In this document: piece by piece, positions 1,875 through 14,746 of the stretch
Layout of the letters: each line of letters opens with the position of its first letter
Numbering within the stretch: the first letter of the stretch is position 1
Origin: Anaerotruncus massiliensis (ex Togo et al. 2026)
GTDB taxonomy: Bacteria; Bacillota; Clostridia; Oscillospirales; Ruminococcaceae
NCBI RefSeq assembly: GCF_900199635.1
Contig: NZ_LT962687.1
Span: 2,666,541 to 2,730,540, forward strand
Length of the DNA: 64,000 nucleotides
Reading direction: 5' to 3'
The notes under the pieces: model-generated
Database searches by the model: none
What the model was told of the DNA's origin: nothing
What the model saw: the letters and a program-made list of their open reading frames with translations, nothing else
Made by a program: the position numbers and the translations under genes

Positions 1875-2882
1875 ATGATCGAACAGGCTGCGGGCGTGAT
1901 CGCCTCATTCGTGCAGAGCGCCGTGCAGGAAGCATTCAAGGGGTTTGCGCAGGACAGGCTCGACGAGCGGGCGCTGGAGCGGCTGTACGGCGAGCTGGAC
2001 GCGGCCATCGAGCGCCAGTGCTCCGGCGGGGCGGAGGCGGAGGCCGTGCGGGACGCTGCGGACAAGCTGACCTACGCGTACACCGATCCCCAGGTCCTCA
2101 CCGACGACTGGCGCGCCGAACTGACCGAGCGGTTCTACCGGGAGCACCCCGACATCCGACGCAGCGAACGGCTTGACCACCTCTTTACCGACTGCTACGC
2201 GCGGCTGGACAGGTACCTTTCCGCCCAGCTGGGGCAGAAGGGGCGCCTTTCGCTGCTGGCGAACCGGCAGGACGGGAAGGAAAACGCCCGCCTGGTGATC
2301 GACCGGATCGACCGGACGGAAAACAACCTCAAGCAGCTGCTGCAAAGCGGAAGGAGGTTCCCCATGCTCTGTGTCTGCAAGGACCGGCCCGTGCTCTGCG
2401 AGGTGTGGGACAGCGCGTTCGACGGCATCGACCTTTTCAGCGGGGACACCCTCTTTTTCACCGAGTCGGTGGGGGAGGACACCCGCAAGCTCACCCTGAG
2501 CCTCGTCAACCCCGGACAGGTCCCGATCACCGAACTGACCCTCTCCGATTTTATGGTGGGCGTCGTGACCGACGTGCAGTATGAGAACGGCTATTACGAG
2601 TCCACGCAGATTTTTCAAAACGTGGACGGGCAGAGCGTCCGCAACATTATCTTCCCCGGCCAGCGCTTCGATCTGAGCATGGTCTTTGACGACGAGCTCG
2701 GGGAGGACCGGGAGAAGCCGGGCTACCTCTACGTCTCCTTCGCGGCCAGCGCCCTCTGCGTGGAGGGGGAAGAGCCCGCCCGCTACCGCTACGACCTCTT
2801 CTGCGACCGGCAGGAGGCGCGCGGAGAGTCCGCGCCCTTTTACACCGGGAGCTACCGGATCTGCGTGCTCCGCCAGAGCTGA
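1875..2882 (+). CDS. Solitary 335-aa protein of unknown function
   Basis: I do not recognise this protein. The N-terminal half (about residues 1-160) is charged and predicted helical, including VQEAFKGFAQDRLDE, FYREHPDIRRSERLDHLF and a basic/acidic segment near 130-155 suggestive of a short coiled coil. The C-terminal half is richer in beta-type sequence (LTLSLVNPGQVPITELTLSDF, LYVSFAASALCV). There is no signal peptide or membrane segment, so it is probably cytoplasmic. The start is supported by AGGGAG 8 bases upstream. It stands alone between its own promoter and a strong terminator. The helical N-terminus is reminiscent of adaptor domains in prokaryotic NLR/TIR-type proteins, but this is only an impression. 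Confidence 0.75.
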   Translation: MIEQAAGVIASFVQSAVQEAFKGFAQDRLDERALERLYGELDAAIERQCSGGAEAEAVRDAADKLTYAYTDPQVLTDDWRAELTERFYREHPDIRRSERLDHLFTDCYARLDRYLSAQLGQKGRLSLLANRQDGKENARLVIDRIDRTENNLKQLLQSGRRFPMLCVCKDRPVLCEVWDSAFDGIDLFSGDTLFFTESVGEDTRKLTLSLVNPGQVPITELTLSDFMVGVVTDVQYENGYYESTQIFQNVDGQSVRNIIFPGQRFDLSMVFDDELGEDREKPGYLYVSFAASALCVEGEEPARYRYDLFCDRQEARGESAPFYTGSYRICVLRQS

Positions 2883-2895
2883 AAAAACCCGGAAA

Positions 2896-2928
2896 GGGCC
2901 GGCGGCCAAACGGCCGCCGGTCCTTTTT
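2896..2928 (+). terminator. Rho-independent terminator
   Basis: A 12-bp GC-rich stem with one G-T pair, AAAC loop and a T5 tract, just after the stop of the 335-aa gene. An A6 run on the left may let it also serve the converging operon. Confidence 0.88.
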
Positions 2929-2934
2929 CGCGCC

Positions 2935-4791
2935 TCAGTATTTGCGCCCGCGCAGCTCCTCTCTGGGGGTCTGCGCGGTAAAGACCCGTTCGTCTGTGAT
3001 GATCCGCAGCGGCAGCTCCTTCCCGCTCATCAGGTCGGTCACCGCCTTCATGAGCTGCGGCCCGAGCAGCGGGCTGCACTCGACCACGCAGTTGAGCCTG
3101 CCCTCCTCGAGCGCCTTGACCGCCTCCTCTGTACCGTCCACCGAGATGATCTTCACGTCCCGGCCCGGCTGGATGCCCGCCGCCTCGAGCGCGTCGACCG
3201 CGCCGAGCGCCATGTCGTCGTTGTGGGAATAGATCACGTCGATGTCCCACGCGTGCTCCCGCAGATACCGCTCGACGACGAGACGTCCCCCCTCCCGGGT
3301 GAAGTCGCCGCCCGCGGAATAGACGATCGAATAGTCGGGATGCTCGGCCAACAGCATCTCAAAGCCCCGCTTGCGCTCGATGGTCGGGGTGGCCCCGACC
3401 GTTCCCTGGATTTCAAGGATGCGCACCGGGTGCTTATCCGCGGGCACGTTTGCCGCCGTCCAGCGCATGGCGCGGCGGCCCTCCTCGATGAAGTCCGCGC
3501 CGATGAAGGTCATGAAGAGGTCGTCCTCCGCCACGGAGATCTTCCGGTCGGAAAGCAGCACGGGGATGCCCGCGTCGCGCGCCTCCATGAGCACCTCGTC
3601 CCAGCCGCTGTCGACGATGGGGGAGATGACGATCACGTCCATCCTCTGCCGGATAAACTCCCGCACCGCCTCGAGCTGGGCCTGCTGGTCGTTGTCCGCG
3701 TCAATGGCGGTCAGATCGACGCCGAACTCCCGCGCCGCGTCCCGGATCGACTGGTTGTTCGCCAGCCGCCAGCCGCTCTCGGTGCCCACCTGTGCGTAGC
3801 CCACGCGGATCGTCCGGTCGACCGGACGGGTCGCGCGGTCGAGCTGGCGCTCGTAGCTGTCCACATTTTCCCGCGTGATCGCGTGGCTGCGCAGGATGAC
3901 CTGCTTGGGCACGCCGCTCACCTTCCCGAGGATGTCGAGCGAAAACTGGATCGCCTCCCTGCCGCCGGTCGGGCAGGTGATCGTCTCGTCGATTTTCCCG
4001 CCGCGGATGAGCTCCAGCCCGCCGTCCTGCCCGGTGAAGCCGTCGATGCCGACGATTTTCACGTCGTCGCAGCCGAGCCGGTGGGCGGCCTTATAGGCGC
4101 CGAGCGCCATATAGTCGTTGTGCGCGAAGATCACGTCGAACTCCCGGAGCCGCTCGCCGTAGGCGCTCACCAGGTCCTCCGCCGCGTCGCGCGACTCGTT
4201 TTCCACCGTGACCGACTCGATCTCGATGAGCGGGAAAAGGGAGGTGACCGAGCGAAAGCCGCCGCTGCGCTCGGCGCTCGCCTGCGAATGGGGCCCGCCC
4301 TTGAGCTCGAGCACCTTCGCCGCCGAGCCCCGCACGAGCCGGACGGCGGCCTCCCCCGCCTGCTTGCCGATCAGGTCGTTGTCCGGCCCGATGAAGAGGG
4401 AGTAGTCGTAGCCCTCCACCACCCGGTCGAGCACGATGACGGGGATCTTCTGGTAGACCTCGCTGACCACCGGCGTGATCCGCTCGACGTCGTGGGGCGA
4501 GACGATCAGCAGATCGATGCCGTAGCCGAGCAGGCGCTGGATGTCCTCGACCTGCTTTTCGCCGTCGGAGGTCGCGTCGGTTATGACCAGCCGGATCTCC
4601 GGATGCCTGGCCGCCTCCTCCTGCAGTTCGCGGATCAGCACCAGCCGCCACGGCTCGCGCATGTTGGCCTGCGAGACGCCGATGACATACCGGATCTTCC
4701 CCTCCTCCGGCCCGGACCGGCAGCCCGCGGGCAGCAGGAGCAGGGCGGCGCAGAGCAGCGCCGCCGTCAGCCGCCGGAATCCCCTTCTCAT
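2935..4791 (-). CDS. Two-headed sugar-binding lipoprotein (tandem PBP type 1 domains)
   Basis: This 618-aa lipoprotein begins with a signal peptide ending in LLPAGC (lipobox) and carries two complete periplasmic-binding domains of the ribose/galactofuranose class. Domain 1 (about residues 30-315) runs from VIGVSQANMREPWR to a region with AHNDYMALGA. Domain 2 (about 320-618) starts VGYAQVGTESGWR and contains FIGADFIEEG, IQGTVGA, GDFTREGG, SHNDDMALGA and ECSPLLGPQ, all shared with the YtfQ-like protein encoded at 11584-12624. Ordinary members are single-domain (about 300-350 aa), so this is a fusion. It follows the kinase and regulator genes in one operon, 22 bases after the regulator. I infer an extracytoplasmic sugar co-receptor for the kinase rather than a transport protein. 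Confidence 0.88.
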   Translation of the reverse strand: MRRGFRRLTAALLCAALLLLPAGCRSGPEEGKIRYVIGVSQANMREPWRLVLIRELQEEAARHPEIRLVITDATSDGEKQVEDIQRLLGYGIDLLIVSPHDVERITPVVSEVYQKIPVIVLDRVVEGYDYSLFIGPDNDLIGKQAGEAAVRLVRGSAAKVLELKGGPHSQASAERSGGFRSVTSLFPLIEIESVTVENESRDAAEDLVSAYGERLREFDVIFAHNDYMALGAYKAAHRLGCDDVKIVGIDGFTGQDGGLELIRGGKIDETITCPTGGREAIQFSLDILGKVSGVPKQVILRSHAITRENVDSYERQLDRATRPVDRTIRVGYAQVGTESGWRLANNQSIRDAAREFGVDLTAIDADNDQQAQLEAVREFIRQRMDVIVISPIVDSGWDEVLMEARDAGIPVLLSDRKISVAEDDLFMTFIGADFIEEGRRAMRWTAANVPADKHPVRILEIQGTVGATPTIERKRGFEMLLAEHPDYSIVYSAGGDFTREGGRLVVERYLREHAWDIDVIYSHNDDMALGAVDALEAAGIQPGRDVKIISVDGTEEAVKALEEGRLNCVVECSPLLGPQLMKAVTDLMSGKELPLRIITDERVFTAQTPREELRGRKY

Positions 4792-4813
4792 ATGGCCGTC
4801 CCCTCCTTTTCCG

Positions 4814-6019
4814 TCACCGCGCGGCGCCGCCCCTCCGATACTCCATCGGGGAGACGCCGAGCACCTTTTTGAAGGCGCTGCTGAAATAGTGCTGGCTTGA
4901 ATAACCCACCCGCTCCGCGATCTCGTACATCTTGAGCTCCCCGTCGGCGAGCAGCTCGACCGCCCGCCGGATGCGCACCCGCGAGAGGTAGTCGACAAAG
5001 GTGACCCCCGTCTCGTGGCGGAAGAGGCGGCTCAGGTGCTGGGGGGAGAGGTGCAGGCGGTCCGCCGCCCCCTGGAGCGAGAGGCAGGGGTCGGCGTAGC
5101 GCTCCTCGATGTAACGCCGCGCCTCCAGCACCGACTGCGGGCATTTTTCCCGCTGCTCGAGCAGCTCCATCGCGTCGTCGTACGCCTCGGGCAGACCGGC
5201 CAGACGGTCGCCCGGGACCTGCGACAGCACCGCCTGCGCGGGCAGGTGCTCCTCCAGCAGCTCCCGCAGCTCCCGCGCGGTGGCGCTCCAGCGCGCGGCG
5301 GGCAGGCAGGAGGAGAGGACCACGAGATCGCCGCTCGCGTTCTTGCAGGAGGTCACCGGGCCGAGCGGCTCGAAGAGCTCCCGCGCGATGTTCTCCGCCG
5401 CGTAATAGAGCAGGTTCTCGTCCCACTCCTGCCCCACCATCGTCTTCCCCTCGTTCACCGAGAGGTGCGCGACCGTGACGCCGTAGGGCTCGGGGATGGA
5501 GATGCCGAGGTAGCCGAGCTGCTCGGCCACCTCCGGCTCGCTGTACCGCCCCTCAAGCCAGCCGTCGAGGAAGGCGGCGACGAGCGACGAGCGGTTCTTT
5601 TCGAGCTGCATGCGCGCCCAGTCGAGGTATTTGACCTGCCTGCGGTTGGTCTGGAGCTGCTGCTTGGCGCGCCCGACCGCGTCGTAGAACGCGTCCTCCA
5701 TCACCGGCTTGAGCAGGTAGTCGAACACCCCCAGCCGCAGCGCCTGCTGCGCGTAGGAAAAATCGTCGTAGCCGGTGATGACGATGATGACCGCGCCCCG
5801 CAGCACCCCCTCGAGCCGCTCGATGAATTCCAGCCCGTTCAAAAAGGGCATGTTGATGTCGACGAGCAGCAGGTCGGGCAGGCGCTCGGCGGCCAGCTCG
5901 AGCGCCTGCTCCCCGTCCTCCGCCAGCGCGGCGACTTCAAAGTCCGGGTCCCTTGCGAGCAGCCGAGAAAGGCCGCTCCGGATGATCTCCTCGTCATCCG
6001 CGATCAATGCCTTATACAT
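4814..6019 (-). CDS. YesN-like response regulator, AraC-type output
   Basis: A 401-aa cytoplasmic transcription regulator. Residues 1-120 form a receiver domain with acidic pocket DD (8-9), phospho-acceptor Asp54 in VDINMP, and the conserved TGYDD and KPV segments. A helical linker follows, and the last 100 residues are a double helix-turn-helix of AraC type (LSLQGAADRLHLSPQHLSRLF and MYEIAERVGYSSQHYFSSAFKK). The start ATG overlaps the end of the kinase gene by 8 bases and has GGGAGG 6 bases upstream, so the two are translationally coupled. It probably activates the sugar ABC operon just upstream (inference from proximity). Confidence 0.93.
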   Translation of the reverse strand: MYKALIADDEEIIRSGLSRLLARDPDFEVAALAEDGEQALELAAERLPDLLLVDINMPFLNGLEFIERLEGVLRGAVIIVITGYDDFSYAQQALRLGVFDYLLKPVMEDAFYDAVGRAKQQLQTNRRQVKYLDWARMQLEKNRSSLVAAFLDGWLEGRYSEPEVAEQLGYLGISIPEPYGVTVAHLSVNEGKTMVGQEWDENLLYYAAENIARELFEPLGPVTSCKNASGDLVVLSSCLPAARWSATARELRELLEEHLPAQAVLSQVPGDRLAGLPEAYDDAMELLEQREKCPQSVLEARRYIEERYADPCLSLQGAADRLHLSPQHLSRLFRHETGVTFVDYLSRVRIRRAVELLADGELKMYEIAERVGYSSQHYFSSAFKKVLGVSPMEYRRGGAAR

Positions 6020-7802
6020 GGAAAACCTCCCGGTTGATCAATTCCGCCCGGGCGGGCAGCGAGACCGTCACCGTCGTGCCCTCCCCCGGCGTGCTGTCAA
6101 GCGATATCCCGTAGCGGTCCCCGTAGCACAGCCGGATGCGCTCCGCGATGTAGAAGAGCCCGAAGCTCGTCTTCTCCATCTCGTCGAGCGGCTTTTTGAG
6201 CTGTTCCCGCAGCGCGGCGAGGCGTTCGGGCGGCATGCCCGCGCCGTCGTCCCGCACGGTGATGCGAAGCCCCTCCTCCGACATCCGCCCCGTGACGGCG
6301 ATCGTGCCGCCGCCCCGCTTCTGCTTGATGCCGTGGTAGATGGCGTTTTCGACGAGCGGCTGCAAAATCAGCTTGGGCACGAGGCAGCCCGAAAGCTCGG
6401 CCGGGACGTCGACCGCGTAATTGAGCTTGTCCTTGTAGCGGATCTTCTGGATATAGAGGTAGTTGGAGACGTGGGTGATCTCCTCCTGCACGCTGATGAA
6501 GTCCTTGCCGTGGGAGAGGCCGATGCGGAACATGCTGGTGAGCGCGTCGACCAGCCTCACGATGTCGTCGGCGCCGTAGTCGCGCGCCATCCAGCTGATC
6601 GTGTCGAGGGTGTTGTAGAGGAAGTGGGGCTTGATCTGCTCCTGCAGGCTCTTGAGCTCGGCGTCCCGCTTGCTCTGCTGCTCCTCGTACACCCGGTGGA
6701 TCAGGTGGTCGATGCGGTGGATCATATGGTTGAAGCTGTGGCCGAGGTCGCCGATCTCGTCGCTGTAGAGGCTGTTGAACCGCACGGACAGGTCGCCCGA
6801 CTCCGCCTGCTTCATGAGCTTCTGGAGCTTGGAGATCGGCTTGGTGACCGAGTTGGCGAGCTGGAGCGATACGAAGAGCACCAGCGCGCCCGTCCCGACG
6901 ATGCAGAGGATGAGCACATAGACGATCGTGTTGATGCCGCCCATGACCTCGTCGAGGGAAAAGACGCCCACCGTCTTCCAGCCGGTAAAGCCGCTCTGCT
7001 CGTAGCGGATCTGGTAGCGCCCGCCCGCGATCTGCGCGGTCACCGGGACGCCCGCGTCCCCGTCGAGCCAGGCGGGGTCGACGCGGTAGACGATCTCGTT
7101 GACGGGGGTGAAGACCATGTTGTCGTCGGAGTCGACGACAAAGACGAACCCCTTCTCCCCGATTGTCACGTTCTTGATCGAGTCGGTGATGATCTCGTGG
7201 CTCACGTCGAAGAGGATGACCCCGCGCACCTCGCCCGTCCGGCGGTCCTTGACCGCCTTGGCCAGCGAAAAGACGTTGTCCGCGCTGTAGTCCTGCTTGG
7301 TGACGATGTTCCGCCCCGTCGTGCTGCCCACCAGCACCACCCGGTCGGGCTCGGTCGACGCCAGCCGGTACCAGTTCTCGCTCGTGAAGGGGTCGCGGGA
7401 GATGCGGCTCATCCCCGTGCTTACGCTGTCGTCCTGCTCGGTGGCGATCAGGATGCCCGCGATCTCGGGGTGGGAGCGCGCGATGTCGCTGAGGGTGCTC
7501 GAGACGGGCGTCTGCATCCGTTCCCACGCCGCCGCGTCCTCGAGCATCCCGCTGCGCTGGAGCATGCAGGTCAGGTAGTCGGCCATCTTGTCGATCGTGC
7601 TGATGTACATGTCGATCGAGTTGCTCACCTGCCCGGTGATCTGCGCGGTGTGGGCCATCGTCGTCTGCCGCGCCTGCGACAGGAAGACCCCCGCGCTCAC
7701 CGCGGCGAAGATGACCAGGGGGATGAGCGCCATAAAGACGTAGGTGATCGCCATCTTGTTGCGGAACCGGTTGTTCTGGAAGAGCTCCCAAAGCCGCCTC
7801 AT
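6012..7802 (-). CDS. YesM/LytS-type sensor histidine kinase
   Basis: A 596-aa membrane sensor kinase. It has a transmembrane helix near 20-42, a large extracytoplasmic Cache-like region (about 45-290), a second helix (near 295-320), a HAMP linker (SVTKPISKLQKLM), then the His_kinase domain with phospho-acceptor His393 in QIKPHFLYNT and an ATPase domain (LVENAIYHGI, DDGAGM, GLFYIAERI). The start is MRRLWELFQ, preceded by AAGGGGG; the longer reading has no ribosome-binding site. A TATAAT lies at 7839-7844 with a poor -35, as expected for a weak or activated promoter. It pairs with the following response regulator and probably receives its ligand signal through the tandem-domain lipoprotein. Confidence 0.93.
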   Translation of the reverse strand: MRRLWELFQNNRFRNKMAITYVFMALIPLVIFAAVSAGVFLSQARQTTMAHTAQITGQVSNSIDMYISTIDKMADYLTCMLQRSGMLEDAAAWERMQTPVSSTLSDIARSHPEIAGILIATEQDDSVSTGMSRISRDPFTSENWYRLASTEPDRVVLVGSTTGRNIVTKQDYSADNVFSLAKAVKDRRTGEVRGVILFDVSHEIITDSIKNVTIGEKGFVFVVDSDDNMVFTPVNEIVYRVDPAWLDGDAGVPVTAQIAGGRYQIRYEQSGFTGWKTVGVFSLDEVMGGINTIVYVLILCIVGTGALVLFVSLQLANSVTKPISKLQKLMKQAESGDLSVRFNSLYSDEIGDLGHSFNHMIHRIDHLIHRVYEEQQSKRDAELKSLQEQIKPHFLYNTLDTISWMARDYGADDIVRLVDALTSMFRIGLSHGKDFISVQEEITHVSNYLYIQKIRYKDKLNYAVDVPAELSGCLVPKLILQPLVENAIYHGIKQKRGGGTIAVTGRMSEEGLRITVRDDGAGMPPERLAALREQLKKPLDEMEKTSFGLFYIAERIRLCYGDRYGISLDSTPGEGTTVTVSLPARAELINREVFHV

Positions 7803-7887
7803 CGCGCGTCCCCCTTTCCCATTTTTCCGGACTTTTCCATTATAGCGGAAAAACCGCTTTCGCGGCAGGTTCAATATAACCAAGATT

Positions 7888-7917
7888 GTCCGGCCGCTTT
7901 TGTCAAAGCGGCCGGAC
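7888..7917 (-). terminator. Terminator-like hairpin after the sugar ABC operon
   Basis: A perfect 13-bp stem (GTCCGGCCGCTTT / AAAGCGGCCGGAC) with a 4-base loop lies right after the last permease gene and before the sensor kinase. The following T-tract is weak, so some read-through into the kinase genes is possible. Confidence 0.75.
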
Positions 7918-7939
7918 CGGCAGTCACGCGAAGCCCGCG

Positions 7940-8929
7940 TTAACCCTTGTTTTTAAGCTTTTCCGCGCGGATGGCGATGATCCGCTGGATGACGATGAAG
8001 ACGCAGAGCAGCGCCGCGATCGTGACCTTGGTCCACCAGGTGTTGAGGTTCTGGTAGGTGACGATCGTCTGGATGACGCCCTGGATGAGCACGCCGAACA
8101 TCGTGCCGATCACGGTGCCGACGCCGCCGGTGAGCAGCGTGCCGCCGATGACCGCCGAGGAGATCGCGTCGAGCTCGAGGCCCATGTTCTGGAGCGAATA
8201 GCCCGCCAGCGTGTAGAAGCTGAACACCACGCCGGCCAGCGCCGCGCAGAAGCCGCTGATCGCGTAGACGGAGATCTTGGTGCGCGCCACCGGAAGCCCC
8301 ATGAGCACCGCCGACTGCTCGCCGCCGCCCACCGCGTAGACCCCGCGGCCGAACTTGGTGTATTTGAGCACGTAGTAGGCGAGCGCCACGACCGCCAGCG
8401 CGATGAACACGTAGTAATAGAGCTTCGCCTTGCCGAAGGCGACCTTGCCCAGCGCCATGCTCTTGTAGAAGCCGTCGGAGATGGGGATCGACTCGGTGCT
8501 GATCACCGCGCACAGCCCGCGCATGAAGAACTGCCCCGCGAGGGTGACGATGAAGGGCTGGAGATCGTAGCTGTGGATGAGGAAGCCCATCAGCGCGCCG
8601 ACGCCCAGCCCGATGAGCAGCACCAGCGGGATGACCACGAAGGCGGGCACTCCCAGCCGCAGCAGGAAGGCGGAGAAGACGCAGGTAAACGCCAACGTCG
8701 AAGCGACCGAGATGTCGATGCCTCCGGTCAGCAGCACGAAGGTGATGCCGACCGAGACGATGATGAGGTAGGCGTTGTCGTTGAAGAGGTTCAAGAAGGT
8801 GGAGAGGGAGAGGAAGCGGTCGTATCTGACCGACCCCGCCGCGAACAGCCCCACGAAGAGGATGACGGTGATGAAGAGGGAGACGTTTTTGATCCCGCCC
8901 CTGCGCCTTGTTTTTTCCAGTGTGCTCAC
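7940..8929 (-). CDS. yjfF: Sugar ABC transporter permease, YjfF-like
   Basis: A 329-aa inner-membrane permease with about eight to nine hydrophobic segments and the hallmark TGGIDISVASTLAFTC near the middle of the first half, plus GGTLLTGGVGTVIGTMFG near the end, typical of the ribose/galactofuranose permease family. It is the second of two adjacent permease genes, as in E. coli ytfQRT-yjfF. A GTG start is chosen because it overlaps the stop of the preceding gene (GTGA), a coupling arrangement; no ATG is available before the first helix. It partners with YtfT-, YtfR- and YtfQ-like proteins. The imported sugar is likely a furanose or pentose (family knowledge), not proven. Confidence 0.9.
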   Translation of the reverse strand: MSTLEKTRRRGGIKNVSLFITVILFVGLFAAGSVRYDRFLSLSTFLNLFNDNAYLIIVSVGITFVLLTGGIDISVASTLAFTCVFSAFLLRLGVPAFVVIPLVLLIGLGVGALMGFLIHSYDLQPFIVTLAGQFFMRGLCAVISTESIPISDGFYKSMALGKVAFGKAKLYYYVFIALAVVALAYYVLKYTKFGRGVYAVGGGEQSAVLMGLPVARTKISVYAISGFCAALAGVVFSFYTLAGYSLQNMGLELDAISSAVIGGTLLTGGVGTVIGTMFGVLIQGVIQTIVTYQNLNTWWTKVTIAALLCVFIVIQRIIAIRAEKLKNKG

Positions 8930-9960
8930 GCCGCGCTCACCGCCTTCCGGGAGGTCAGCCTGGCCGCGACGGCGGCCTTGAACTTCTTCGACTGCGCCAG
9001 GCAGATCGCGACGACGATGAGGGCCTTGACCACCTGCGTGACCTCGGGGGCGACGCCCATCGCGTAGACCGAGGTGGTGATCGACTGGATGATCAGCGCG
9101 CCGACGATCGAGGCGGGGATCGAGAACCGCCCGCCCGCGAGGGAGGTGCCGCCGATCGCGACCGCGAGGATCGCGTCCATCTCGATCATCAGGCCGGCGT
9201 TGTTGCAGTCGGCGCCCTTGATGCCCGCCGACTCGATGAGTCCCGCGATGGCCGCCATCGCGCCGCAGAAGGTGTAGATGACCAGCTTCACCCGGTCGAC
9301 GTTGATGCCCGCGAACCGGCTCGACACCGGGTTGCAGCCGGTCGACTCGACGAAGAGCCCGAACGCGGTCTTCTTGGTGAAGAGCATGATGAGCAGCACG
9401 AAGAACCCGACGATGAAGAGGGGAAAGGGCAGTCCGAGGATGTAGCCGCCGTTGATGAAGTAGTAGGCGTCCGAATTGACGGTGACGATCTTGCCGTCGG
9501 TGATGAGCTGCGCGATGCCGCGCCCCGCCACCATGAGGATCATCGTGGCGACGATCGGCTGGATCTTGATCTTGGAGACGAGCAGCCCGTTCCACGCGCC
9601 GCAGAGGACGCCCGCGAGCACCGCGATGAGCACCGCGGCCGTGACGCTGCCGCCGAGCGACGACAGGATGCGCCCGTCGACGACCGAGCAGGCGATCGCG
9701 CCCGAAATCGCCATGACCGACCCGACCGAGATGTCGGTGCCGCCGGTGGCGAGCACCATCGTCATGCCGGTCGCGAGCAGCATGAGCTTGGAGCCGTTGC
9801 GCAGGATGTCGATGAGCCTGCCGTAGAGGTGGCCGTCGACGATCCTCATCTGGAAGAAGGCGCCGCCCGACACGACGCCGTTAACGAGCAGGATGGCGAG
9901 CAGCACCATCAGCGGCCAGAAGGACTGGCACTTCGTGAGCTTTTTAAGCCGGCTGTTCAT
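8926..9960 (-). CDS. ytfT: Sugar ABC transporter permease, YtfT-like
   Basis: A 344-aa permease with multiple membrane helices and the conserved ATGGTDISVGSVMAISG and VAIGGTSLAGGRFS segments of the RbsC/YtfT family. The ATG at 9960 has GGGAGG 8 bases upstream; a GTG three codons earlier falls inside that site. It overlaps the ATPase gene by about 17 bases at its start and the second permease gene by 4 bases at its end, so the three are one translational unit. It forms the membrane channel together with the YjfF-like subunit. Confidence 0.9.
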   Translation of the reverse strand: MNSRLKKLTKCQSFWPLMVLLAILLVNGVVSGGAFFQMRIVDGHLYGRLIDILRNGSKLMLLATGMTMVLATGGTDISVGSVMAISGAIACSVVDGRILSSLGGSVTAAVLIAVLAGVLCGAWNGLLVSKIKIQPIVATMILMVAGRGIAQLITDGKIVTVNSDAYYFINGGYILGLPFPLFIVGFFVLLIMLFTKKTAFGLFVESTGCNPVSSRFAGINVDRVKLVIYTFCGAMAAIAGLIESAGIKGADCNNAGLMIEMDAILAVAIGGTSLAGGRFSIPASIVGALIIQSITTSVYAMGVAPEVTQVVKALIVVAICLAQSKKFKAAVAARLTSRKAVSAA

Positions 9961-11467
9961 TCTGCGCACCTCCCGCGATCAGATTCATGATGGCCGCCTC
10001 GGAGATCTCCTCACCGGAGAGCTCGGCGACCTTCACCTTGTCCCGCAGCACCGCCATGCGGTTGCAGCAGCGCAGCATCTCGTCGATTTCGGACGAGATG
10101 AAGATGAGCGCCATGCCCTCCTCGGCCAGCTGGATGACGATCTTCTGGATCTCCGCCTTGGTGCCGATGTCGATGCCGCGCGTCGGCTCGTCGAGCATCA
10201 GCAGGTCGGGGTTGGTGGCAAGCCAGCGGGCGAGGATGACCTTCTGCTGGTTGCCGCCCGACAGGTTGCGGATGAGCTGGTCCTGCGAGGGGGTTTTGAT
10301 CGCGAGCTTTTCGATGTACTCGTCCGCGATCTTCTCCGCCTCCGCGCGGGAGATCGCCCGCAGCATCCCCCGCTTGGTCTGGAGGGCGAGGACGATGTTT
10401 TCGCGGATGGTCAAATCCCCCACAATGCCCTCCGTCTTGCGGTTCTCGGGGCAGAAGGCGAACCCGCTGCGGATCGCCGCGAGGGTGCCGCGCACCTCCG
10501 TCTTCCTGCCCCGCACGTCGACCTCCCCCCGCTCCATCCGGTCGACGCCGAAGATGAGCCGGGCGGTCTCGCTGCGCCCCGAGCCGAGCAGCCCGGAGAG
10601 GCCGAGCACCTCGCCCCGGCGGATCTCGAGGTTCACGTCCGGGATCGAGGCGGAGCCCGCCCCGCGCAGCTCCACGAGCACCTCGCCCATCCGCTCCTCG
10701 CCGCCCTTCGCGGCGGCGCTGCCCTCGAGCTCGGCGTACTCCTTGCCGATCATCTTGCCGACCAGCTGGACCCGCGGCAGCTCGGCGGTCGCGTAGGTGC
10801 CGACATATTCGCCGTTGCGCAGCACGGTGATCGTGTCGGTGACCTCGTAGACCTGGTCGAGGAAGTGGGTGACGAAGATGATGCCCATGCCCTGGCTTTT
10901 GAGCATCCGCATGATCTCGAAGAGCTTTTGCACCTCGACCGCCGTGAGGCTCGAGGTCGGCTCGTCGAGGATGAGCACCCGGGCCGAAATGTCGACGGCG
11001 CGCGCGATGGCGACCATCTGCTGCACCGCGACCGAATAGGCGTCGAGGTTCTGGGTGACGTCGATATTCAGATTAAACCGGCCGAGCAGCTCCGCCGCCT
11101 TCCGGTTGATGGTTTTCCAGTCGATGCGCCCCGCCCTGCGGGGCTCGCGGCCGATATAGATGTTCTCCGCCACCGACAGGTTGGGGCAGAGATTGACCTC
11201 CTGATACACCGTGCTGATGCCGGTCTCCTGCGCCTCCTGCGGGGTCCGGGGGAAGATCTCCTTCCCCTCCAGCCAGACGGTCCCGCTGTCGCGCTGTTCC
11301 ACGCCGGTCAGCACCTTGATCAGCGTGGATTTGCCCGCGCCGTTTTCGCCGAGCAGCGCGTGAATCTCCCCCGCGCGCAGGGAAAACTCCACGTCGTCCA
11401 GCGCCACGACCGCCGGGAACCGCTTGGAGATGTGCTCCATGCGCAGAAGCAGCTTTTCCGCATCCAT
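9944..11467 (-). CDS. ytfR: Sugar ABC transporter ATPase, YtfR-like (two ABC domains)
   Basis: A 507-aa cytoplasmic ATPase with two nucleotide-binding domains. The N-terminal one has Walker A GENGAGKST, the Q-loop (TVYQEV) and Walker B LILDEPTSSL. Its signature region reads YSVAVQQMVAIARA, the degenerate form normal for this family. The C-terminal domain has a degenerate Walker A (GLLGSGRSE) but an intact LSGGNQQKVILARWL signature and LLMLDEPTRGID. This architecture matches RbsA/YtfR/MglA proteins. It powers uptake through the two permeases downstream. Confidence 0.95.
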   Translation of the reverse strand: MDAEKLLLRMEHISKRFPAVVALDDVEFSLRAGEIHALLGENGAGKSTLIKVLTGVEQRDSGTVWLEGKEIFPRTPQEAQETGISTVYQEVNLCPNLSVAENIYIGREPRRAGRIDWKTINRKAAELLGRFNLNIDVTQNLDAYSVAVQQMVAIARAVDISARVLILDEPTSSLTAVEVQKLFEIMRMLKSQGMGIIFVTHFLDQVYEVTDTITVLRNGEYVGTYATAELPRVQLVGKMIGKEYAELEGSAAAKGGEERMGEVLVELRGAGSASIPDVNLEIRRGEVLGLSGLLGSGRSETARLIFGVDRMERGEVDVRGRKTEVRGTLAAIRSGFAFCPENRKTEGIVGDLTIRENIVLALQTKRGMLRAISRAEAEKIADEYIEKLAIKTPSQDQLIRNLSGGNQQKVILARWLATNPDLLMLDEPTRGIDIGTKAEIQKIVIQLAEEGMALIFISSEIDEMLRCCNRMAVLRDKVKVAELSGEEISEAAIMNLIAGGAQNEQPA

Positions 11468-11504
11468 CGCCGTATCCTCCTCTCGCTATTCCTGCATGAC
11501 TGTC

Positions 11505-11539
11505 GAAATCCGCTCCGACCCAGCGCCGGAGCGGATTTC
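11505..11539 (-). other. Intercistronic hairpin between binding protein and ATPase genes
   Basis: A perfect 13-bp stem (GAAATCCGCTCCG / CGGAGCGGATTTC) with a 9-base loop and no T-tract. Such stem-loops after binding-protein genes commonly protect that mRNA segment from 3' decay, giving excess binding protein over membrane components (known for other ABC operons; inferred here). Confidence 0.7.
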
Positions 11540-11583
11540 AACGTTTCTATTCGTGTTGGGAAGAAAGAATGAAAAGACTTGGA

Positions 11584-12624
11584 TCAGTAGACGCGGTTCG
11601 GCAGGTCCTCGGCCGCGGTTTCGGCGCGGTAGACGCCCTCTTCGGATTTGATCCACTTCTCAACCGTCTCGCCGGCCTTGAGCTTGGCGCAGGTCTCGAA
11701 GAACTGGGGTCCGAGCAGCGGGTTGCACTCGACGGTGACGTTCGCCTCGCCGGCGGCCATCGCCTCAAAGATGCCCTTGACGCCGTCGCAGGAGACGGTC
11801 TTGATGTCGACGCCCGGCTTGAGTCCGGCTTCCTTGATCGCTTCGATCGCGCCGAGCATCATGTCGTCGTTGTGGGCGAAAACGCCCTGGATCTCGCTGC
11901 CGTAGGTCTTCAGGAAGGACTCCATGACCTCTTTGCCCTTCGCACGGGTGAAGTCGCCGGTCTGGGAGGCGAGGATCTCGATGTCGGGATATTTGGCCGC
12001 GATCTGGTCGTCGAAGCCCTTCTTGCGGTCATTGGCCGCGGAGGCGCCCACGGTGCCCTCAAGCTCGACGATCTTGCCCTTGTTGTCGAGCAGGCGCGCC
12101 ATCTCGTCGGCGCCGTCGTTGCCCTCCTTGATGAAGTCGGAGCCGATGAAGGTCGCGTAGAGGTCCTCGGGAACGTCAGCCTTGCGGTCGACGAGCACGA
12201 TCGGGATGCCGGCCTCCTTGGCCTCGGTGAAGACCGCGTCCCAGCCGGTTTCCACGACGGGGGCGAGCCCGATGACATCGACGCCCATGTCGATGAACGA
12301 TTTGATCGCCTTGATCTGGTTTTCCTGTTTCTGCTGCGCGTCCGCGAACTTGAGGTCGATCGTGTCGATGTTCTGGCCCGCGTAGAACTGGATGGACTGG
12401 GTCTCGGCGTCACGCCAGCCGGACTCCTGTCCGATCTGCGCGAACCCGACGACGAGCTTGTCGTTGGCGGGCTTGGCGGCGGGCTCGGCGGGAGCCGGGG
12501 CCGCGTCGGCGGAGGCGGGCGTATCGGCCGGGGCCGGAGCCGCCGCGGGCTCGCTGCCGCACCCCGCGAACACCATGGACGCCATGCACACTGCCAGGAC
12601 GATTGCCAGGATTCTCTTTTTCAT
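11584..12624 (-). CDS. ytfQ: Sugar-binding lipoprotein, YtfQ-like
   Basis: A 346-aa extracytoplasmic solute-binding protein. The signal peptide ends at a lipobox (VFAGC) and is followed by an Ala/Pro-rich linker. The mature domain contains VGFAQIGQESGWR, FIGSDFIKEG, LEGTVGA, GDFTRAKG, AHNDDMMLGA and ECNPLLGPQ, which match the galactofuranose-type binding protein family and also domain 2 of the tandem lipoprotein at 2935-4791. AAGGAG precedes the ATG. It is the first gene of the ABC operon and captures the sugar for YtfR/YtfT/YjfF-like partners. Confidence 0.93.
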   Translation of the reverse strand: MKKRILAIVLAVCMASMVFAGCGSEPAAAPAPADTPASADAAPAPAEPAAKPANDKLVVGFAQIGQESGWRDAETQSIQFYAGQNIDTIDLKFADAQQKQENQIKAIKSFIDMGVDVIGLAPVVETGWDAVFTEAKEAGIPIVLVDRKADVPEDLYATFIGSDFIKEGNDGADEMARLLDNKGKIVELEGTVGASAANDRKKGFDDQIAAKYPDIEILASQTGDFTRAKGKEVMESFLKTYGSEIQGVFAHNDDMMLGAIEAIKEAGLKPGVDIKTVSCDGVKGIFEAMAAGEANVTVECNPLLGPQFFETCAKLKAGETVEKWIKSEEGVYRAETAAEDLPNRVY

Positions 12625-12676
12625 TTTTCTTTTCTCCTTCTCGCAGATTCGGGTGTTTTTCCCTTTCGGTGTTTTT

Positions 12677-12719
12677 ATCCTACCACCCGCCCGCTGGAAA
12701 GTCTTTACAATGAAAAGAC
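12677..12719 (-). promoter_or_regulatory. Candidate regulated promoter of the ytfQ-like operon
   Basis: On the minus strand a weak AAGACT (12700-12705) is 17 bases from TAGGAT (12677-12682). The -35 is overlapped by a perfect inverted repeat, GTCTTT-N7-AAAGAC (12701-12719). A poor -35 with an overlapping palindrome is what one expects of an activator-dependent promoter; the YesN-like regulator encoded in the same cluster is the obvious candidate (inference). Confidence 0.4.
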
Positions 12720-12776
12720 CAAAATATGCGATTTTTTAGCAGGCGCCGGTTTCCCCTCAGCCCGTCCGGGCGCGTC

Positions 12777-12817
12777 AAAAAAGCCTCCCGGCCCCCGCTG
12801 TGCGGGGGCCGGGAGGC
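12777..12817 (-). terminator. Strong rho-independent terminator of nadE
   Basis: A perfect 16-bp GC stem with a 3-base loop, followed on the minus strand by T6, directly after the nadE stop. Confidence 0.93.
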
Positions 12818-12829
12818 TGTGTCGCGGGA

Positions 12830-14746
12830 TCAGGAGAGCGCGTCGAGCTCCGCGAGCCAGAGGGCGGCGGCCGCGTCGCTCGGCATCCGCCAGTCGCCGC
12901 GCGGCGAGAGGGAGACCGAACCGATCTTCGGCCCGTCGGGCAGGCAGGAGCGTTTGAACTGCTGCGCGAAAAACCTGCGGCAGAAGGTCCGCAGCCAGTG
13001 GAGGATCGTTTCGCGCCCGTATTGGCCGTCGAAGGCGCGCAGGGCGAGGCGCAGGATCTTGCGGGGGGAAAATCCCCAGCGCACGAGGTAGTAGAGGAAA
13101 AAGTCGTGCAGCTCGTAGGGCCCCACGAGATCCTCCGTCTTCTGCCCGATCTCCCCCTCGGCGGGCGGGAGCAACTCGGGGCTCACCGGGGTGTCGAGGA
13201 TGTCGCGCAGCACTTTTGCGAGGACCGGGTCGCCGGCGCGGTCCGCCTCGTATGCCACGAGCTCCCGCGCCAGCGTCTTGGGCACCGACGCGTTGACTCC
13301 GTACATCGACATGTGGTCGCCGTTGTAGGTGGCCCAGCCGAGCGCCAGCTCGGAGAGGTCCCCCGTGCCGACCACCAGCCCGCCCGTGCGGTTGGCGATG
13401 TCCATCAGCACCTGGGTGCGCTCGCGCGCCTGCGCGTTTTCATAGGTCACGTCGCGCAGGCCGGGGTCCTGCCCGATGTCGCGGAAGTGCACGCCGACCG
13501 CGTCCGCAATATCCACGCAAGAGAAGCTCACGCCGAGCCGTTCGCAGAGGAGTTCCGCGTTGCCCTTCGTGCGCGCGGTCGTGCCGAAGCCGGGCATTGT
13601 CACCGCCTGCACGCTGGCGCGCGGACGGCCGAGCAGGTCGGCCGCACGCACCGCCGCGAGCAGGGCGAGCGCCGAATCGAGCCCGCCCGAGATGCCCACG
13701 ACGGCGGTCTTCGCGCCTGAGTGGGCGAGCCGCCGGGCAAGCCCGCGCGACTGGATCTGCAGGACCTGCTCGCAGCAGCCGTCCCGTTCCCCCAGCGAAG
13801 GCAGGAAGGGGTGCCGCGGCACCGTCCGGGTGAGCGGCGTCTCGCGTGGGGAGAGGGAGAAGGTGCTGCTCAGGTAGCCCTCGCGGGCGGCGGCCGGAAA
13901 GGTGGTCAGCCGCCTGCGCTCGGCGGTGATCCGGCCGATGTCCAGGTCGGTGACGGCGAACCCGCCGGTAAAGGGCGGCTTCTCCGCGAGCAGCGCGCCG
14001 TCCTCCGCAATGAGCCCGTGCCCCGAAAAGACCATGTCGGTGGTCGACTCCCCCTCGCCCGCGTTGGCATAGAGGTAGCCGCAGACGAGCCTCGCCGACT
14101 GGTTCTTCACCAGCTCCCGGCGGTAGGCGGCCTTGCCGACCGTCTCGTCCCCTGCCGAAAGGTTCACGAGCACCGTCGCGCCCGCCTGCGCGAGCGTGAT
14201 CGACGGCGGGCAGGGCGCCCACAGGTCCTCGCACACCTCGACGCCGAGCACCAGCCCGGGCAGCTCCTCGCAGTGGAAGAGCTGCTTTGCGCCGAAGGGG
14301 ATCACATCCTCCCCAAAGACGCCCGTCAGATAGCCGTTCTCCTCCGGCGCGGGGGCGAACCACCGTTTTTCATAATATTCGCCGTAGTTGGGCAGATGGG
14401 TCTTGGGCACCAGCCCGAGCACCTCCCCGCGGCAGAGGACCGCCGCGCAGTTGTAGAGCTTTCCGTGCCACATGACCGGCAGCCCCACCGCCAGGAGCAT
14501 GTCGAGGTCCTCCGTCTCCCGGCGCACCGTCTCGAGGGCGGCGTACGCCCCCTCGATCAGCGTGTCCTGCAGGAAGAGGTCGCCGCAGGTGTACCCCGTC
14601 AGGCAGAGCTCGGGCAGCGCCAAAATCCGCACGCCCTCCATCGCGGCACGCCTGGCCGCCGCAGCGGCCGACGCCGCGTTGTAGGCGCAGTCCGCCACCC
14701 GGATTTCCGGCGTGCCCACCGCCGCCTTGATCAGTCCATCCTTCAT
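12830..14746 (-). CDS. nadE: Glutamine-dependent NAD+ synthetase
   Basis: A 638-aa cytoplasmic enzyme making NAD+ from deamido-NAD+, ATP and glutamine-derived ammonia. The N-terminal nitrilase-type glutaminase domain shows the Glu-Lys-Cys triad as E46 (LPELCLTGY), K115 (PKTHLPNYGEYYE) and C172 (EVCEDLW). The C-terminal synthetase domain carries the pyrophosphate loop SGGLDSAL and the GTGDLSELALGW and YGVNASVPK segments. The length fits the two-domain bacterial form. It is transcribed alone, from a promoter at 14871-14899 to a strong terminator. Confidence 0.96.
   Translation of the reverse strand: MKDGLIKAAVGTPEIRVADCAYNAASAAAAARRAAMEGVRILALPELCLTGYTCGDLFLQDTLIEGAYAALETVRRETEDLDMLLAVGLPVMWHGKLYNCAAVLCRGEVLGLVPKTHLPNYGEYYEKRWFAPAPEENGYLTGVFGEDVIPFGAKQLFHCEELPGLVLGVEVCEDLWAPCPPSITLAQAGATVLVNLSAGDETVGKAAYRRELVKNQSARLVCGYLYANAGEGESTTDMVFSGHGLIAEDGALLAEKPPFTGGFAVTDLDIGRITAERRRLTTFPAAAREGYLSSTFSLSPRETPLTRTVPRHPFLPSLGERDGCCEQVLQIQSRGLARRLAHSGAKTAVVGISGGLDSALALLAAVRAADLLGRPRASVQAVTMPGFGTTARTKGNAELLCERLGVSFSCVDIADAVGVHFRDIGQDPGLRDVTYENAQARERTQVLMDIANRTGGLVVGTGDLSELALGWATYNGDHMSMYGVNASVPKTLARELVAYEADRAGDPVLAKVLRDILDTPVSPELLPPAEGEIGQKTEDLVGPYELHDFFLYYLVRWGFSPRKILRLALRAFDGQYGRETILHWLRTFCRRFFAQQFKRSCLPDGPKIGSVSLSPRGDWRMPSDAAAALWLAELDALS

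Follow-up and report, generated by a model that had tools for sequence, protein, structure and literature searches.

What purpose does a second, two-headed sugar-binding lipoprotein serve in an operon that already encodes a sugar importer with a binding protein of its own? The operon lies on the minus strand of the window, by which we mean the whole 64,000-nucleotide stretch of Anaerotruncus massiliensis DNA analysed here, and runs from 12624 down to 2935 in the order ytfQ-ytfR-ytfT-yjfF, followed by the genes of the YesM-type kinase and the YesN-type regulator and, as the last gene, that of the double lipoprotein (Table 1). The genes of kinase and regulator share 8 bases, and 22 bases separate the end of the regulator gene from the start of the double gene. 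The hairpin ahead of the kinase gene is a possible attenuator, which would lower the expression of the sensor set; as the consensus scan found 4 terminator-like sites versus 5.8 expected in shuffles, this hairpin is without statistical support.

Table 1. Features of the operon and of the region upstream of ytfQ, in window coordinates
Feature	Coordinates	Strand	Basis
618-aa tandem sugar-binding lipoprotein (P0001)	2935..4791	-	Pfam, fold, alignment
YesN-type response regulator (P0002), 401 aa: receiver, GGDEF-like middle part, AraC HTH	4814..6019	-	
YesM-type histidine kinase (P0003): extracellular dCache, HAMP, His_kinase, HATPase_c	6012..7802	-	
13-bp hairpin between yjfF and the kinase gene	7888..7917	-	consensus scan
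YjfF-type permease, GTG start at 8929 (by eye; scanned stretch 7940-8926)	7940..8929	-	
YtfT-type permease	8926..9969	-	family scan
YtfR-type ATPase	9944..11467	-	family scan
YtfQ/GafA-like transporter binding lipoprotein (P0004), 346 aa	11584..12624	-	family scan
Conserved promoter element, two direct half-sites AATCGCATA / CATTGTAAAG, 21 bp apart	12700..12740	-	

The double protein begins with a signal peptide (residues 1-23) whose end, ..LLPAGC, reads as a lipobox, and continues with domain 1 (about 35-315) and domain 2 (about 325-618). Pfam finds two separate Peripla_BP_4 stretches within it, and among the 36 Peripla_BP_4 matches in the host genome this is the only frame with two. An AlphaFold2 model based on a 31-sequence alignment (mean pLDDT 90.5, pTM 0.87) suggests that the heads are set in a defined position relative to each other. 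The original prediction of a 618-residue lipoprotein with two full binding domains is thus upheld, and 30 further intact double frames exclude chance as the origin of the frame. A cysteine directly after a hydrophobic stretch is seen by eye at the N-termini of the window protein and 22 of the 30 relatives, 15 of the 30 being accepted by a stricter lipobox pattern; the other eight (L041, L052-L056, L059, L062) have a hydrophobic N-terminal stretch in which a lipobox is not clear, and may therefore be anchored by a transmembrane helix.

These relatives come from a contig scan that gave 56 loci, 30 with an intact double frame and 2 with one broken by nature or by sequencing (L050, L057, both left out of the alignment of doubles). 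As the scan relies on exact peptide words and may miss near kin of the window, the number of double loci is a lower bound. They are spread over Oscillospiraceae, Lachnospiraceae, Acutalibacteraceae, Clostridium and related groups, one Eubacterium and one record labelled Sphaerochaeta. In even draws of genomes the double protein occurs in 1 of 197 (family), 3 of 391 (class) and 2 of 398 (phylum), the host being among each count and G360 in both the class and the phylum count. The tandem variant is rare but conserved.

The two heads are not alike. Domain 2 is 41% identical to the transporter protein P0004, and all six motifs that had been reported as shared by the two (ESGWR, FIG(S/A)DFI, (E/Q)GTVGA, GDFTR, HNDDM, EC(N/S)PLLGPQ) do occur in both. 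Its nearest structures are galactofuranose- and arabinofuranose-binding proteins, namely MSMEG_1712 (6hbd, 6hbm), YtfQ (2vk2) and 5ocp, which differ from it in being single transporter proteins, and the furanose pocket residues of GafA/YtfQ are retained in it (E338, W341, R342, D415, R416). Against the GafA/YtfQ equivalog NF041827 the double protein scores 339.4 bits and P0004 349.8, both below the curated cut-off of 510. Domain 1 had been described as a diverged version of the same domain; it does differ from YtfQ, but this wording understates the matter, since its closest solved relative by both sequence and fold is the sensor domain of BT1754 (2x7x) rather than YtfQ, and from this comparison it is not a decayed copy of domain 2. 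Remote sequence matches of domain 1 include the chains 5xsj and 5xss, which we take to be XylFII of the XylFII-LytS complex. BT1754 from Bacteroides thetaiotaomicron binds fructose, according to the accessible text of PMC3404733, and differs from the window protein in that its single domain is part of a hybrid two-component protein. Sensors resembling domain 1 also sit in longer frames in Bacteroidales and kin (L069-L082), where, by eye, the sensor seems to be joined to a PP2C-type phosphatase in L069 and to an AraC HTH in L077.

We tracked nine pocket residues per head over the 31 intact double proteins, that is the window and the 30 loci. Each of E46, W48, R49, D122, R123, R175, N225, D226 and D250 in domain 1, and each of E338, W341, R342, D415, R416, R473, N524, D525 and D552 in domain 2, is present in 29-31 of the 31 sequences. 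E338 and D415 align, as counted on the alignment, with Glu28 and Asp105 of MSMEG_1712, which the accessible part of PMC10191376 names as ligand-facing; the other tracked residues are presumed sugar contacts from the layout of the fold family. Both pockets look intact, with no sign of a dead adaptor in either domain.

The original prediction had coupled the tandem architecture to a YesM-type kinase, and this coupling holds: in 29 of the 30 intact loci the double gene lies directly behind the regulator or the kinase gene, at most 300 nt behind the regulator gene in 24 and directly behind the kinase gene in 5 (L038, L041, L047, L049, L062). The remaining one, L043, is excluded from this verdict because its contig starts 45 nt before the frame. 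A kinase was detected in 25 of the 30; those in which it went undetected are L030, L031 and L043 on contigs of 5.7-7.2 kb, L056, on a contig that stops 3 kb past the gene, and L045, where permease and regulator are joined in one odd frame. The kinase of L062 is split over two overlapping frames. The regulator was detected in 28, and was not found in L043 nor in the 21.8 kb of L049. Three layouts recur: that of the window (transporter-kinase-regulator-double), regulator-transporter-kinase-double (L038, L041, L047, L062) and regulator-double-transporter-kinase (L052-L054, L059). A GH43 gene stands between the double gene and ytfQ in L055, and two genes stand between yjfF and the kinase gene in L046. 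Other arrangements of binding proteins and kinases occur as well. L021 and L022 have a YtfQ-type single protein beside another YesM/YesN-like pair, besides a second YtfQ-type protein with the transporter, and in the host itself a regulator and kinase set at about 6800-8873 of L026 is followed by two separate binding proteins, one with an N-terminus like a membrane anchor and one a lipoprotein. The host has other close pairs of binding proteins, for example C7:456893 and C7:458116.

Two domains, conserved pockets, gene linkage, a dCache kinase and a conserved promoter element can all be read from the sequences. We consider it probable that the double protein acts as receptor in a three-component system of the CuaDSR or XylFII-LytS kind, in tandem form, which induces a furanose importer; the binding to the kinase, the ligand, the sign of the regulation and the head that signals are the parts of this reading that we infer. 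The double lipoprotein, tethered outside the membrane, would be the ligand-receiving third component of the YesM/YesN system, and each head could accept a monosaccharide, the likeliest being galactose, arabinose or a related sugar in furanose form. Loaded with sugar, the double protein would touch the dCache domain of the kinase, which would lead to phosphorylation of the AraC-type regulator. The regulator would bind the direct repeats, which extend to within the -35 region of the promoter of ytfQ, and raise expression of the importer, and read-through from that promoter would raise kinase, regulator and sensor as well.

The CuaD-CuaS-CuaR system of Ruminiclostridium cellulolyticum, as described in the accessible parts of PMC10384115 and PMC5663094, likewise has a dedicated sensing lipoprotein apart from the transporter's own, a HAMP kinase with an extracellular part (267 residues were used there), a YesN/AraC regulator and a neighbouring ABC importer. 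In a two-hybrid test CuaD, unlike the transporter protein CuaA, binds the sensor part of the kinase, CuaS-EC, with or without cellobiose; even when CuaD is missing, kinase and regulator can sense cellobiose, with lower efficiency (PMC10384115, accessible part). CuaD differs in being a single family-1 binding protein for cellobiose of 410 residues in its mature form, whereas the window protein carries two monosaccharide-type domains on one chain. In XylFII-LytS of Clostridium beijerinckii a binding protein is again the sugar receptor of the kinase, but it has a single domain, binds xylose, and forms a complex of two binding proteins on two sensor parts (PMC10384115, same part). With two domains per chain against one in CuaD and XylFII, the window system would be a variant of three-component sensing.

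The kinase fits this reading. Its sensor region matches dCache_1 with 67.1 bits (cut-off 45), and Foldseek places an AlphaFold2 model of it (pLDDT 85.2, pTM 0.65) next to chemoreceptor models and the dCache domains of chemoreceptors and kinases, with query TM-scores of about 0.4-0.7. We also compared distance matrices, with the YtfR distances taken out, over the 19 loci that had all parts; as these loci are related to each other, the covariation is weak evidence. The sensor part of the kinase covaries with domain 1 at 0.71 and with domain 2 at 0.57, and its cytoplasmic part at 0.39 and 0.35. For the sensor part the values are 0.73 and 0.62 in 16 related loci, and 0.74 and 0.80 in the 12 loci without Clostridium. 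This flip in order means that covariation does not tell which head faces the kinase. YtfQ, in turn, covaries more with domain 2 (0.58) than with domain 1 (0.20) in 16 loci, and with both at 0.59 in the 12 without Clostridium.

At the output end, the pair of half-sites upstream of ytfQ is common to the window and many relatives; the second half-site adjoins the -35 region, which is followed by a -10-like box. Direct repeats of such spacing suit an AraC-type activator, and the element is a candidate operator of the response regulator. Run against the window and 27 double or single-domain loci, an nhmmer profile, built from 19 of the regions that it later re-found, locates the element upstream of ytfQ in the window and in 21 of these loci when E values up to 5 are allowed. 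The inclusion threshold is passed by the window and 9 of the loci; among the 27 the element was not found in L023, L045, L053, L054, L059 and L067. Beyond the training set the profile matches L034, L065 and L066, all near-duplicates of rows used in training, a site ahead of the YtfQ-type gene of L057 (E 0.013) and, weakly, one ahead of the GH2 gene of L049 (E 0.96). A pattern derived from the site has one zero-mismatch place in the host genome, by construction the one upstream of ytfQ; with three mismatches it has two places against one for a reversed control pattern. The consensus scan of 2700-13000 gave no strict sigma-70 promoter.

How much does domain 2 contribute? In five loci, L023 from G443 and L064-L067 from four Clostridium species, the operon slot of the double gene is taken by a protein with domain 1 and no domain 2; they keep regulator, transporter and kinase, which implies that domain 1 alone can fill the slot. 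They lend some weight to the idea, which we regard as possible but somewhat unlikely, that signalling needs domain 1 only, with domain 2 serving as a ligand buffer or an affinity-sharpening spacer. The five proteins are nested in the double clade of a tree built from 52 domain-1 rows. A topology that unites the domain-1 rows of all doubles in one clade is mildly rejected (p-AU 0.031, with two long rows omitted), as expected if some doubles lost domain 2, and one clade of the five is not rejected (p-AU 0.281); the long branches L077 and L083 were left out of the second domain-1 tree. The five loci have probably lost domain 2, loss being the simplest reading; the search for domain-2 remnants between domain 1 and ytfQ in these loci gave chance-level matches alone (best E 1.2). 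It speaks against a mere buffer or spacer that the pockets of domains 1 and 2 are equally conserved, and the single-domain proteins may serve another sugar.

A role for both heads raises the matter of which sugar, or sugars, they bind. We scanned 30 flanking proteins of 14 loci, hand-picked by size and place and hence an uneven sample, from a pool of 109 unlabelled frames of 13 loci and the frames of four more. Sugar-related neighbours are GH43 (L048, L049, L055) and GH2 (L049), an alpha-galactosidase and an aldose 1-epimerase in L046, and an FGGY kinase and a ROK regulator in L054. The remaining scanned flanks (chemoreceptors, transport, peptidase, amino-acid and SRP proteins) gave no clear sugar clue, nor did a transketolase, a triosephosphate isomerase, other flanks and two proteins without a family. 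The neighbours in some relatives thus point to galactose and arabinose. Among the frames read next to the window operon no catabolic gene was seen. No match to AraA, GH43 or the GH51 C-terminal domain turned up in the host genome, which does encode a galactokinase; this makes arabinose less likely in the host, and our guess for the ligand of domain 2 there is galactose in its furanose form. A more elaborate version, in which the two heads report two different furanose sugars to the single kinase and the operon answers their combination or ratio, is tentative and in our estimation unlikely. That the heads would compare bound with unbound states, as the original prediction also offered, is likewise tentative. 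Two relatives have chemoreceptor (MCP) genes in or beside the operon (L048:3542-5164 and L049:282-2159), so that sugar taxis may share binding proteins with it.

The double protein might instead be a second, two-headed loading protein that delivers sugar to YtfT/YjfF, much as tandem domains deliver substrate in GlnPQ-type importers. Domain 2 resembles GafA and its pocket is conserved, and at least one transporter gene is present in the available DNA of 26 of the 30 intact loci, so linkage alone is compatible with a role in transport. We nevertheless find this improbable. A separate YtfQ-type gene accompanies the double gene in 22 of the 30 loci as in the window, most of the others ending before that place, and the double gene adjoins the regulator or kinase gene, not those of the permeases. 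The permease gene of L046 is 5.9 kb from the kinase gene, the double gene of L055 is 6.7 kb from ytfQ, and L057, whose double gene is broken, has the sensor set without a YtfR match in 21.8 kb. Domain 2 also diverges faster than YtfQ (mean distances over 19 loci 0.75 versus 0.44) and groups apart from it. A quick tree of 75 rows gathers the 41 single proteins of YtfQ type in one starred group (97), which includes the kinase-side single proteins of L021 and L022, and domain 2 of all 31 doubles falls outside it; the domain-2 piece of the broken double L057 was counted as 'single' in this tree. A duplication of the local ytfQ as the source of domain 2 is accordingly not borne out: this placement implies that domain 2 has not been copied from it recently. 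A single origin of domain 2 in the doubles is possible, but the tree does not show the domain-2 rows as one clade: their labels need 3 changes, their base is unresolved, and L048 adjoins the YtfQ group (support 89).

That the double protein arose by an assembly or annotation fusion of two genes has practically no chance, for although broken-frame copies exist (L050, L057), it is ruled out by 31 double frames that are intact in separate assemblies, with 43-71% identity between the window protein and the 30 relatives, and the separate genes that the original prediction named as its refutation are absent in all 32 double loci (30 with one frame, 2 broken).

The receptor reading that we prefer retains much of the interpretation first given to the locus, in which one polypeptide relays sugar binding to the kinase: the two-domain architecture is conserved, linkage to kinase or regulator holds in 29 of 30 loci, and among the literature matches listed, a scope that leaves aside most subscription papers, none reports a tandem soluble binding-protein sensor of this kind. 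BvgS, the nearest tandem, and a tandem protein in G465 speak against calling the arrangement unprecedented. The flytraps of BvgS belong to another binding-protein family. BvgS, as the accessible part of PMC4352136 describes it, also has two flytrap domains in tandem feeding a kinase, but there the domains are fused to the kinase, whereas the window has a separate lipoprotein. The G465 tandem is among the matches listed from a search for tandem proteins in nine genomes outside the host; it is an unrelated tandem Peripla_BP_4 lipoprotein (L098:3565-5376, minus strand) in an ABC-transporter operon with kinase-like and regulator genes of its own, and its two near-identical domains look like a recent internal duplication.

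Pairs of a binding protein and a kinase pose the question of how a soluble flytrap signals its loading to a dimeric kinase. A covalent pair with two pockets that differ and are each conserved, together with natural one-head relatives that keep the rest of the operon, is a ready test of the contribution of each head, and the system would offer a furanose-sugar sensor with a candidate operator.
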